Positions 54,663-62,250 of a stretch of DNA of 64,000 nucleotides are shown here, piece after piece; the first letter of the stretch is position 1, and every line of letters starts with the position of its first letter. Below the pieces are notes generated by a model. That model was not told the DNA's origin and searched no databases. It worked only from the letters and a program-made list of their open reading frames with translations. The stretch lies in assembly GCA_034670405.1 (NCBI GenBank), contig JAXDDX010000034.1:2281501-2345500 (forward strand), in the 5' to 3' direction. The DNA comes from Hoplostethus atlanticus. Its lineage: Eukaryota; Chordata; Actinopteri; Trachichthyiformes; Trachichthyidae. The position numbers were made by a program, and so were the translations under genes.

Positions 54663-57600
54663 ATGGCATTTCTCTCTGTGCTGTTTTTCTTCTGCGTCAC
54701 ATCTTTACTCAGCAGCACTGAGAGTGTTTCTGAGATCTGCAGGGGGACGCACTGCTTCGCTGCCCAGGACTGGAGCAGACTGTGCGTCGGAGAGCATTGC
54801 CAGGGGCGCACGGAGGCGACAGCGTCCCGACGGCAGCTTCATCACCCACCACAAACCAGACAAGCACAAGTCTACCCCAGGTTACCAACAGGATTCTCAG
54901 TCGAGTCATCATCAAGCCCAAAGCGCGCCGTTAGTGCCGTACACTATCATCCAACCACATCGACGAGACAATGCGCAATTAGCGTCTACCGGTACTGATG
55001 GCAGCAGAAGGTCGAATCCCAGGACCATCACGGCGGAGGTTTTCCATCCGGGCTGCGCCGGCGGGAACTGTCAGAGCGGCGTTTCCCCGCGACCAACGGG
55101 CAACGACGGCGCCACGCGGGAGTGCAAGGGGATCGAATGTAAACTGCCCCTCCGGATGCGCCAAAAGCCCCAGCCGTGCGTCGGAGACAGTTGCGGCACG
55201 ACTGGAGGAGAGGGCGGGGGAGGCAACACTTCCCCGGTTCATGTGACGGACAGAGCAGCACAGTTCCTCGGGGAGTTTCCGGACTTTGGGTCGGAGCGTG
55301 GTGCGTCACCCTTGGGGATACAGCTGACATGTGATATCAAACCAGGTCGGTATCATCCCCGATCTGGGGACAAATGGGTCCCTGATCACTTCCTTACCGG
55401 TGAAAGAGTAAGATTAGACAGAAAGTTATTTATCTGACTATCTGACTGACTGTCTTACACTGCAGTCCTCTCCAGTGAATGATACATGATCACATAACTA
55501 TCAATAAAAAATGTCCCTTTTCTCCCCACTTCCTTCCATTGTACCACAGGCTCCAATGAGGTTCCTTCAGAGGACGCCCTTGTGCTGCAGCTCCGGCTGT
55601 CTAAGGGCCAGGAGAAGCTCGTTGAGGCCCTGCGGGGCCAGCAGGATGAGGTCAGGGAGCTGCAGAGGCTTCTAGGAGAACAGCAGGGGACGCTGGTCAG
55701 CCAGCAGAGAGAAATACTGGAGCAACAGAGGAGGATGTATGAACAGATGGACCAAGTGAGGATGGGGATGGTGATGATGTTGTGGTATTCAGCAGTTGAA
55801 GTTGTGTGGTGTGTGTGTGTGTGGGGTGGGGGGGGGGGTGTTAACTACTAATATAACGAAGACCCATATATCAAGTTTTCCCTGGGCCCTGATACTTATG
55901 GTAGCCCCTGTTGTGAAAATGAGGATGATGACTACCATGTTTTTCCATTGAGCTGCTAACCGTGTTTGTATTTTGCTGCTTCCAGGTGAAGGCCCAGTAC
56001 AACCTGTTACTGGAGAACATCAAACAGATGGCCTTCCATGACCTACAGGGGGAGCTAGACAGCCACATGGAAACCCTGAGGGGGCAGGTTAGGGCCCGCC
56101 AAGCGCAGCAGGCCTTCGCTGTGCACAAGGTGGACATGGAAGCCAGCGTCATGGAGGTGAGGCGCTAAATGCTATCCCAAAATGCTACATATCCATTTTG
56201 CTACCGAAATGAATCTGTAGATTATCTAACTCTATCTCTTTCTTCAACCAACCTCGTGTCAGTAGAGTTACTTGTGACTGTTACTTGTGTTACTTGCGTG
56301 TTTGGCGCTGACAGGTGGGGCGCCCCCTGTTGGGCTGCGGGAGCTGTGGTCCCGAGGAGTACTGTGGGTTCAGCAGCGGTCATCCTCGTTGTGAGAGGTG
56401 CACCGTCTGTCCCGCCGGCTTCTTCCTGGTCGCCCAGTGTTCGGTCCACGCAGACAGAATCTGCCAGGTGAGCAGCCGTCACTTCTTAAAGGGGAATTCC
56501 GGTATTTTTAAACCTGGGCTCTATTTGTACATATTCGTCATTTATACCCCAAAATAGGTACAAAAAGTTTTGGAATTGCTCCGGTAGATCGCCTCAGCCG
56601 GCAGTCGCGAAACGGGCTGCTATGGCTGCAACGTAATCCGTAGGGGCAAGTGAGACGATCAAAGTACGTCCACTAAAAGTGCTTGTTTTTGCCACTGACA
56701 GGCTCAGATTGTTATTGGATTTTGCCGTTATCCTGCCATGCTTTCATGTGTACCGATGCCAGGTCAACACAATAAATTTAGCTAATAACATTACCTCACT
56801 CTGTCTGCAGCAGGTCTCGCCACTCAGTTCGGTAAAGTTGGAAATATATTGACAGATTCGAACTTCCCGGATCAATAACTCATAAGCGAAACGTTGTTAA
56901 AACACAAACGACGCCTCTTTCCCACCGTAGTGAGGTAGACAACGAGCTACAGCCATCAACATTATCAAACATCATCAAAACGAGCCGTCTTCAGAGCTGG
57001 ACAAATAACAGTGGTCTCTATGTACAGTGCTCAGGGACCGTCTAAAAAGTGCAACACCTAAAAGAGATACTACAAAAATATTCAATAACTCCACTCTTAT
57101 ACAGTGTAGTGTCCCCAAAATCACTCCACACATCAATGGTCTCCTGTTACGGACAACACTTATGACGGTGCTTCAGTGGGCTACGGCGCTCGTCCGGTAC
57201 TTGTGACATTGTAGGTTTGAGGCTTTTGTTGCATGTCATCTTCTCACATTTTTCCATTCTTTCACCATACTATCTAATAAAGCAGAAAGGCCTTGACAAC
57301 AACACACAGAAATAACTAAAGAACATAACAGAAGCCTGGAGATGAGGGGAATACAGTTAAAATCTTTTGTTTGTTTGTCATTACAGGACAGAGACGAATG
57401 CCTTGAAATATCAAATCTGTGTGGAGATCAACAGAAATGTCTCAACACTCCAGGTAACGAGAGTTCAGCTCCATATGTAGACACTGACAATAAAATCCAA
57501 CCTCATTTCTTACTTTTCTTGTTTTCAGGTGGATTCAGGTGCCAGGGCATGACAGAGCGAGATGCCAACTCGGGAATGTGCGGCCACGTCTACTTCTACA

Positions 57601-59093
57601 ACTCTGACATGGACGAGTGTCAGGCCTGTTCCGAGTGCGACGGAGACCCCGTGGCTTCGCCCTGCACCTTCACCGCCGACACCGTGTGCTCCAGCCCCGC
57701 CGCCGGCGACAGCGCCCTCTCTCTGTCCTGGGCCGGAGACGTGAGCCTACCCACGGCCCCGGGCCACGCCTTCCCGAGCTTGCGGCTTCAGATCCAGGGA
57801 AGAGGCGACGGGGGCCTAGTGTCTGCCGAGGACGGCCGCCTGGTGCTCCGGCAGCACGGCCTGGTGTGGCTGGACGAGAACCTCTCTCTGAATCACGGCT
57901 GCCGCAGCTTCGTCCAGGTGTGTTTGCGGATGAACAGCAGCGACGGCTCCGAGGGTCGCGACCTCAGTGGCGTCAGGGTAGAGCAGAGGGAGGGGCGCTC
58001 GCTCCAGAGTGTGAGCATCAGCGGGGTAGCGGAGGTCGCCCCAGGTCACGTGATCTCCCTCCTCCTCAGGAGCGCCAGCCACCACTGTAACCACAGCAGT
58101 GACGGGCTGCGGCTGTACGACCCCTCCGCCGCTCCGCTCAGTCTCTTCTGGCTATCCCACGATACCGGGGCTGTTGCCATGACAGCACAGGCAGTGGCAT
58201 CCGCACACTACCACACCAACTATCGGCCGGTCTTCCGCACCACATCGACCTCGGACCCCTACGTGGTGGGGCTGACTCACGATGGGCGCGGGGTGCGTTT
58301 TGCCGAGAGCGGCACCGTGCGCTTCGTATTCCAGCAGGCTCTGTACTCCATGGGCCAGGCGTGTGTGAGCGAGGGCTTCCATCTGTTGGCGTACCTCAAC
58401 CGTAACGGGACCGGCATGGAGCTGTCCCGCACCTTCAAACCAGGCGTCCACTACCGGGACACGTCCATATCGCTGTCTGGAGCGGCTAAAGTCGGCCCCG
58501 GGGACACGCTGGGTTTTGAGATTCTCTCTCCGGCTCAGTGCAACGTCCGCTACTTTGGCGACGAGACGGGCATCAGCACCCTCAGCTTGGTTTGGGTTCC
58601 CGCCGCCATCTCTTCCTCTCTCTCCGCCTCCGTGGCTCACACCAGCCTCCCCTCGGGAGCCGTCCGAAACAAGCCGCTGTTCTTCCGCCAGACCAGCCCT
58701 CAGGTCTCCCAGATGTCGCTGCCAGGGAAGGGATCCACAGACCAGAGACGAGACTTTGTCTTCGGGGAGAGCGGCACCGCTAGTTTGGCTCTGGACCTCA
58801 AGCTCATCCACTCCTGCAACCTGGTCAAGGTGACTCTTCTCCGGCGAAGCAATGCAGATGGGGCAAGAGAAGGGGGCAGGGAAGCAGAGGGAGGGAGGCC
58901 CGTCCCCCTGGCCCAGCAGGTGGGGGGCCAGATGCCCGAGGGCAGCCAGTGGGCCAGTGTGGGACTGCGGGCGTCCTTCCAGGTTCGTAACGGCACAGCG
59001 GTGTTCTTCACATTGGACTGCGTACGCGGACGGGTCAACCAGATCAGCCACCAGACAGGAAGTGGAGTGTCAATACTCTGGGTGGCAGTGTAA
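54663..59093 (+). CDS. secreted coiled-coil / TNFR-EGF-like / triple beta-sandwich protein, unnamed
   Basis: I do not recognise this gene. Exons: 54663-55345, 55550-55755, 55986-56156, 56315-56467, 57387-57453, 57529-59093, about 948 residues. ATG 54663 opens a hydrophobic signal peptide (MAFLSVLFFFCVTSLLSS). Exon 1 has five C-x-G-x-x-C motifs (CRGTHC, CVGEHC, CAGGNC, CKGIEC, CVGDSC). The first two are in one frame and the last three in the next, so an extra-base difference lies between 54801 and 54995. Exons 2-3 encode a long coiled coil. Exon 4 has a TNF-receptor-like cysteine module (CGSCGPEEYCGF to CSVHADRIC). Exon 5 starts an EGF-like module (DRDECLEISNLCGDQQKC). Exon 6 adds a second TNFR-like stretch (DECQACSECDG) and three tandem modules ending LSLFWLS, LSLVWVP and VSILWVAV, each with two cysteines. 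These may be C1q/TNF-like jelly rolls. Likely secreted, possibly trimeric through the coiled coil. Function unknown. Confidence 0.8.
56487..57215. repeat. dispersed repeat in intron 4 of the unnamed gene
   Basis: It starts TTAAAGGGGAATTCCGG and continues with CTATTTGTACATATTCGTC and GTGTAGTGTCCCCAAAATCA, wording I recall from abundant non-autonomous interspersed repeats of spiny-rayed fish. No coding capacity. Edges and class are uncertain. Confidence 0.4.
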
Positions 59094-61093: not shown

Positions 61094-62250
61094 CTCCTCT
61101 GGCTCCTCTGGCTCCTCTGGCTCCGGCTCCTCTGGCTCTTCTGGCTCCTCCAGCTCCTGCAGCTCCTCTGGCTCCTCTGGCTCCTCTGGCTCTTATGGCT
61201 CCACCGGCTCCTCCAGCTCCTCCAGCTCCTCTCTGGCTCCTCTGGCTCCGCCGGCTCCGGCTCCTCTGGCTCCTCTGGCTCCTCTGGCTCCTCCAGCTCT
61301 TCCGGCTCCTCTCTGGCTCCTCTGGCTCTTCTGGCTCTTCTGGCTCCTCCATCGCCGGCTCCTCCGGCTCCTCCGGCTCCTGCAGCTCCTCTGGCTCCTC
61401 TGGCTCCTCCGTCGCCGGCTCCTCCAGCTCCTGCAGCTCCTCCGGCTCCTCTCTGGCTCCTCTGGCTCTTCTGGCTCCTCCATCGCCGGCTCCGCCGGCT
61501 CCTCTCTGGCTCCTCTGGCTCCGCCGGCTCCGGCTCCTCTGGCTCTTCTGGCTCCTCTGGCTCCTCCAGCTCTTCCGGCTCCTCTATGGCTCCTCTGGCT
61601 CTTCTGGCTCTTCTGGCTCCTCCATCGCCGGCTCCTCCGGCTCCTCTGGCTCCTCTGGCTCCTCCGTCGCGGGCTCCTCCAGCTCCTGCAGCTCCTCCGG
61701 CTCCTCTCTGGCTCCTCTGGCTCTTCTGGCTCCTCCGTCGCCGGCTCCGCCGGCTCCTCTCTGGCTCCTCTGGCTCTTCTGGCTCTCCAGCTCTTCGGGC
61801 TCCTCTCTGGTTCCTCCGTCGCCGGCTCCACCGGCTCTCCGGCTCTTCGGGCTCCTCTCTGGTTCCACCGGCTCCTCCGGCTCCTCTGGCTCTTCTGGCT
61901 CCTCCGTCGCCGGCTCCACCGGCTCCTCCAGCTCTTCAGGCTCCTCTCTGGCTCCTCTGTCGCCGGCTCTGCCGGCTCCTCTCTGGCTCTTCAGGCTCCT
62001 CTCTGGCTCCTCCGTCGCCGACTCCGCCGGCTCCTCTCTGGCTCCTCTAGCTCCTCTGGCTCTTCTGGCTCCTCCGGCTCTTCGGGCTCCTCTCTGGCTC
62101 CTCTGGCTCTTCTGGCTCCTCCGTCGCCGGCTCCGCCGGCTCCTCTCTGGCTCCTCTGGCTCTCCGGCTCTTCGGGCTCCTCTCTGGTTCCTCCGTCGCC
62201 GGCTCCTCCGGCTCCTCCGGCTCCTCTCTGGCTCCTCTGGCTCTTCTGGC
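61094..62250 (+). repeat. minisatellite, 9-bp GGCTCCTCT units with higher-order repeats
   Basis: About 1.16 kb of GGCTCCTCT-type nonamers with variants (GGCTCTTCT, GGCTCCTCC, GTCGCCGGCTCC). A block of about 273 bp starting at 61241 recurs from 61514, as shown by TCTGGCTCCGCCGGCTCCGG at both positions, so there is a higher-order unit. Because 9 and 273 are multiples of three, long frames stay open on both strands: Ser-Gly or Leu-Trp-Leu runs on plus and Glu-Glu-Pro runs on minus. I regard these as by-products of the repeat and not genes. Confidence 0.95.

Follow-up and report, generated by a model that had tools for sequence, protein, structure and literature searches.

Multimerin and the EMILINs are secreted proteins with an N-terminal cysteine-rich part, a long coiled coil, an EGF module (in multimerin) and a C-terminal C1q head. 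The members of the TNF receptor superfamily feature adjacent tandem cysteine-rich repeats and, in addition, a membrane anchor or a death or TRAF-binding tail. The classical C1q/TNF fold consists of ten strands. In a vertebrate domain-shuffling survey, Multimerin 1 is listed with the EMI and C1q pair, and TNFR_c6 occurs with PRY or SPRY in cyclostomes (PMC11788884). CTRP4 carries two C1q heads on one secreted chain (PMC10866667), the mollusc proteins HcC1qDC5 and CfC1qDC-2 carry three each (PMC10672478), and the mollusc protein HcC1qDC6 features a signal peptide and three C1q domains (PMC5519582). Here, we describe a fish gene of Hoplostethus atlanticus, located at 54663-59093 of the window—a stretch of 64,000 nucleotides corresponding to C34:2281501-2345500 of assembly G000—that probably encodes a secreted, disulfide-rich extracellular protein. 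Its modules very probably comprise two TNFR repeats and an EGF module, followed by three related modules of predicted C1q/TNF type.

The gene model consists of six exons that are joined in phase across GT-AG introns, with 720 open codons in exons 2–6 (Table 1). A second locus of the same genome (C41:2776416-2780952, minus strand) encodes a paralogue of 946 amino acids with the same module order, open from start to stop. An earlier sequence-only reading of the window had described a chain of mixed receptor-type and ligand-type modules. Its observations were borne out in part, and its mixed architecture appears supported by Pfam profiles for the TNFR and EGF modules, by structure prediction for β-module 3 and by homology for β-modules 1 and 2.

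The two TNFR repeats and the EGF module, which that reading had recognised from their cysteines, exceed the Pfam cut-offs when scanned alone. In short segments, both repeats of both paralogues match TNFR_c6 with 31.6–37.3 bits as compared with a gathering score of 29.4, and EGF_CA yields 31.6 and 31.9 bits in the two paralogues against a cut-off of 27; in the longer window protein it reaches 23.1 bits, which is below this cut-off. As judged by reading, the EGF module has no fifth cysteine and is degenerate for this reason. At 57387-57581, the EGF_CA module is followed without a gap by the second TNFR repeat; the first cysteine of this repeat may double as the sixth EGF cysteine. Since the EGF module is placed between the two TNFR repeats, these are not adjacent. 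Neither a death domain nor an EMI domain was matched by Pfam at E up to 1 in exons 2–6 and both exon 1 frames, and no 19-residue stretch past residue 40 exceeds a mean hydropathy of 1.55, as would be expected of a segment of transmembrane strength. Hence, the protein shares two repeats above the Pfam cut-off with the TNF receptor superfamily but departs from it as a whole by the interrupting EGF module, by the lack of a death domain and of a transmembrane-strength segment—TRAF-binding motifs were not sought—and by the presence of modules of the ligand fold. Secreted decoy receptors likewise lack an anchor.

The C-terminal part is formed by three β-modules. Each bears one conserved cysteine pair, and they close with LSLFW, LSLVW and VSILW, respectively. 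In a repeat test with 500 shuffles per module pair, modules 1–2 and 1–3 of the window gene are related with z values of 6.1 and 5.1 (0/500 each), and modules 2–3 give a z of 1.7 (32/500). The paralogue behaves alike, with z values of 7.6 and 7.0 (0/500 each) for modules 1–2 and 1–3 and −0.2 (295/500) for modules 2–3, and module 1 of the window gene matches modules 2 and 3 of the paralogue with z values of 6.1 and 3.9. Modules 2 and 3 are thus connected only through module 1.

The AlphaFold2 model of module 3 features a C1q/TNF jelly roll and can be superposed on experimental structures of C1q or TNF heads. Its best matches include APRIL, LIGHT, TL1A and BAFF beside C1q-family heads (Caprin-2, C1q and cerebellin), and the two families tie—rendering the former label "ligand-type" too strong. 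Modules 1 and 2 may share this fold, as suggested by the sequence relationship of module 1 to module 3 and of module 2 to module 1. In a model folded from all three modules as a single sequence, 50/50 of the listed structure matches fall on module 3. Three confidently folded jelly rolls had been named as the support to look for; one was obtained, with moderate confidence, and two were not.

Several results weigh against this assignment. The model of module 3 is moderate, with a predicted local distance difference test (pLDDT) score of at least 70 at 50/162 residues, values below 50 for residues 1–47 and 84–96 and about 55–59 in the last strand; two of the five models are near 37. DSSP assigns eight strands with a length of at least three residues, not ten, and the model stems from an alignment of three sequences without a folded shuffled control. 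When all three modules were folded together from the single sequence, the resulting model was poor, modules 1 and 2 being unusable in it. Likewise, 0/6 modules of the two paralogues match Pfam C1q (PF00386) or Pfam TNF (PF00229) at E up to 10, where HMMER filters discard most matches above 0.1. The genome has 85 C1q and 15 TNF matches, all of them away from the gene and its paralogue; genome-wide searches cover the 633-Mb assembly. The profile search for C1q, TNF, TNFR and EGF suggested earlier matched TNFR_c6 and EGF_CA, with C1q and TNF unmatched. By hhalign, all modules together reach a probability of 14.3% at best and any module alone at most 1.5%, as compared with 85.3% when C1q is aligned with TNF under identical settings; global-mode alignments are forced end to end and are not counted as evidence.

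Further sequence comparisons gave no lead to the β-modules. In the C-terminal 460 residues, no Pfam family exceeds its cut-off, and the sole sub-threshold match of the module scan is PgaA_barrel in the paralogue (E 0.23). Most of the 28 phmmer matches to PDB sequences (E 0.18–4.3) concern the EGF module or the helical region. With a two-sequence profile, three PDB matches were obtained, the best being an Arp2/3 subunit at E 0.065, and these were dismissed as not credible. When the six modules were compared pairwise with C1q (22) and TNF (7) domains from this genome, which form a subset of the 85 and 15 matches, the best z among 174 pairs was 3.6, uncorrected. Moderate pLDDT, the three-sequence alignment, the weak profile scores and the missing folded control would all be in line with some other β-sandwich fold that AlphaFold2, biased toward TNF/C1q, renders as a jelly roll; we regard this as improbable and retain the C1q/TNF-type assignment.

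The hydrophobic N terminus suits the signal peptide claimed for it, as judged by reading the hydropathy, and the five C-x-G-x-x-C motifs reported for the chain—CRGTHC, CVGEHC, CAGGNC, CKGIEC and CVGDSC—are all located in exon 1. The start codon, the signal peptide and motifs 1 and 2 share one frame, and motifs 3–5 lie with the rest of the chain in the next. Because the start frame ends in a stop codon, the chain is not in one frame in the assembly, which weighs against the proposed reading; the earlier reading had missed this break. The frame change possibly reflects an assembly slip, a real frameshift or allele, or a hidden intron. A GGGG run lies inside the interval, and assembly slips are common at such runs. 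With at least 60 bases and an acceptor up to 55060, 18 GT-AG pairs would fit the length of a frame-restoring intron; the best pair (donor 6/9, 7/14 pyrimidines) is a poor fit compared with the five donors (7–8) and acceptors (8–13) of the gene model.

This break would also be explained if the window copy were a pseudogene and the function of the family were carried by the paralogue, all the more as a genome search with exon 1 found no match besides itself and the paralogue exon, hence no better copy in the assembly. However, exons 2–6 are open with intact splice sites, the slip-prone GGGG run may be the cause, and nonsynonymous differences between the paralogues (pN 0.248; distance dN 0.30) are below synonymous ones (pS 0.629; dS 1.37). 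This comparison spans 796 aligned codons and omits exon 5 together with the initial part of exon 1. We therefore hold a pseudogene to be decidedly unlikely.

For exons 2–3, a coiled coil had been proposed. In 28-residue windows, up to 0.875 of the heptad a/d positions are in LIVMAY, but this value was picked as the most favourable of seven phases, lacks a control and involves a drifting phase. Across the entire region, LIVM occupies 0.36 of the a/d positions in the best phase versus 0.28 overall (0.42 versus 0.29 in the paralogue). The heptads hint weakly at a coiled coil, and their weakness counts against oligomerisation by this route.

Between the window gene and the paralogue, identity amounts to 44% in the N-terminal region, 62% in the coil region, 67% in the first TNFR repeat, 75% in the EGF module and 62% in the second TNFR repeat, followed by 52%, 71% and 61% in β-modules 1, 2 and 3. 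The window gene keeps 35/35 cysteines of the paralogue and adds two, of which one falls within the likely signal peptide. Exon 1 of the paralogue is open and bears the same five cysteine pairs, one as CTDTDC, without the glycine. The region of exons 2, 3 and 4 (window 55550-56467) corresponds to a single exon in the paralogue (C41:2778850-2779409); the two introns were presumably lost or gained after duplication. The family has two members in this genome: modules 1–2 as a query find two loci in total, and the coil region with the first TNFR repeat finds no further member in the genome. Weak matches on C64 and C16 were rejected as a third member, since they resemble a frame arising by chance and a TNFR repeat of the ordinary kind. 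No relative was confirmed among 57 pattern stretches in prokaryote genomes and 51 in viral contigs.

The order of N-terminal cysteines, helical region, EGF module and C-terminal C1q-type heads resembles Multimerin/EMILIN. In contrast to them, the window protein has no Pfam EMI match, two TNFR repeats, three heads instead of one, heads that the Pfam C1q model does not recognise and a weakly supported coiled coil. By analogy, it might—tentatively, and somewhat short of an even chance—be an adhesive or recognition molecule with multivalent heads, of multimerin/EMILIN or C1q type. The protein would be secreted, as its hydropathy suggests, and several chains would be joined through the CxGxxC loops at the N terminus and through the helical region of exons 2–3, for which the weak heptads and analogy are the basis. 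Following multimerin, C1q and CTRP proteins, the TNFR-EGF-TNFR block could form a stalk or a side-binding surface and the three C-terminal jelly rolls the head, that is, the clustered binding end. The clustered heads would provide avidity, and the protein would act neither as a TNF receptor nor as a TNF cytokine of the classical kind.

The main rivals are a purely structural matrix protein and a soluble regulator of TNF ligands. In an extracellular-matrix protein, the three jelly rolls would serve assembly only. The Multimerin/EMILIN-like order and the high conservation of the cysteines fit this role, but the Pfam scan found no EMI domain and the strong divergence among the three modules suggests different roles; we consider it rather unlikely. 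A soluble regulator of TNF-family cytokines would use its TNFR repeats as a decoy and its jelly rolls to join or imitate ligand trimers. Two repeats above the cut-off and APRIL, LIGHT, TL1A and BAFF among the best matches of the module 3 model speak for this, and CTRP4, which has two C1q domains, competitively blocks a cytokine receptor and is a precedent for head-type proteins (PMC10866667); we still judge it unlikely. More daring, and very unlikely, is a natural single-chain heterotrimer of TNF/C1q type: the three diverged heads would form one asymmetric pseudo-trimer, the TNFR repeats would bind this head in cis, and the self-contained receptor-ligand pair would be opened or exchanged to signal.

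Like CTRP4 and the mollusc tandem C1qDC proteins, the window protein would carry more than one C1q-type head per secreted chain. Its heads lie outside the Pfam C1q model, however, and are preceded by TNFR and EGF modules, whereas "TNFR" is absent from the available texts on the mollusc proteins (PMC10672478, PMC5519582). With the TNF ligand superfamily, it shares the predicted fold of module 3 but differs in not being a type II membrane protein by reading, in having three modules per chain and in lacking a Pfam TNF match. Three jelly-roll heads in one chain, as proposed here, also occur in the engineered single-chain APRIL-BAFF-BAFF (PDB 4zch), which is among the structure matches.

In agreement with the sequence-only reading, searches of Pfam, PDB sequences and the open-licence literature gave no named family that matches the chain as a whole. 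Chains with two or three C1q heads have been published already; a combination of C1q-type heads with TNFR repeats was not found in the open-licence literature searched. Quite possibly, public fish genomes list the gene as uncharacterised. The TNF/C1q head fold and TNF-receptor repeats would, if the assignment is correct, be united on one secreted chain with heads that have diverged beyond the reach of the standard profiles for C1q and TNF, and surveys based on those profiles would miss the family. The domain-shuffling survey would not register these heads because it is built on Pfam domains (PMC11788884). A natural tandem of three non-identical modules would also make intrachain trimers of the superfamily testable—the most interesting question being whether the three heads pack within one chain or with the heads of other chains.

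Table 1. Features of the window gene (window coordinates)
Feature	Position	Strand	Remark
Exon 1	54663..55345	+	Carries the start codon, the likely signal peptide and all five C-x-G-x-x-C motifs; its counterpart in the paralogue is conserved and open
C-x-G-x-x-C motifs 1–5	54738-54755, 54783-54800, 55054-55071, 55123-55140, 55177-55194	+	In exon 1
Frame-change interval	54799..54995	+	Shift of one base; start frame stops at 54996-54998
Exon 2	55550..55755	+	Possible coiled coil, first part; GT-AG
Exon 3	55986..56156	+	Possible coiled coil, second part
Exon 4	56315..56467	+	First TNFR cysteine-rich repeat, extra CGSC pair ahead of it
First TNFR repeat	56345-56464	+	Pfam TNFR_c6, 36.9 bits (gathering score 29.4)
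Exon 5	57387..57453	+	Most of calcium-binding EGF-like module; remainder to ~57545 in exon 6
Exon 6	57529..59093	+	EGF end, second TNFR repeat, three β-modules, stop
Second TNFR repeat	57579..57689	+	Pfam TNFR_c6, 31.9 bits (gathering score 29.4)
β-module 1	57714..58163	+	Putative C1q/TNF-like fold by homology to module 3
β-module 2	58164..58604	+	Putative C1q/TNF-like fold via module 1
β-module 3	58605..59090	+	Predicted C1q/TNF-like jelly roll

The paralogue on C41 is adjoined by gad2 exons (C41:2758955-2764583), one of which scores 96.7 bits with GAD2 versus 86.1 with GAD1. Judged by motifs, we take the order there to be gad2 (+), paralogue (−) and an apbb1ip/raph1-type gene (+). In the window, what we presume to be an apbb1ip/raph1-type gene (−) is found at 46-47 kb; it and the gene described here are arranged head to head, as on C41. 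The scores of this window copy with APBB1IP and RAPH1 (66.5 vs 65.6 bits) are too close to separate. Further left are exons that we assume to be Abl-interactor-like and YME1L1-like, and the 40 kb right of the window showed no gad2 motif. The shared linkage suggests two copies of one block, which would most simply go back to the teleost genome duplication. Human GAD2 and APBB1IP presumably adjoin, matching the order on C41, and no such gene is known between them in human. Its position near gad2 and next to a gene of apbb1ip type would provide an address for locating the family, or dating when it was lost, in other vertebrates. Beyond the gene, at 61094-62250, the window features a tandem array of ~1.16 kb with the 9-base unit CTCCTCTGG and longer periods of 273 and 386; the array is open in several frames on both strands and looks like a low-complexity repeat, not a gene.
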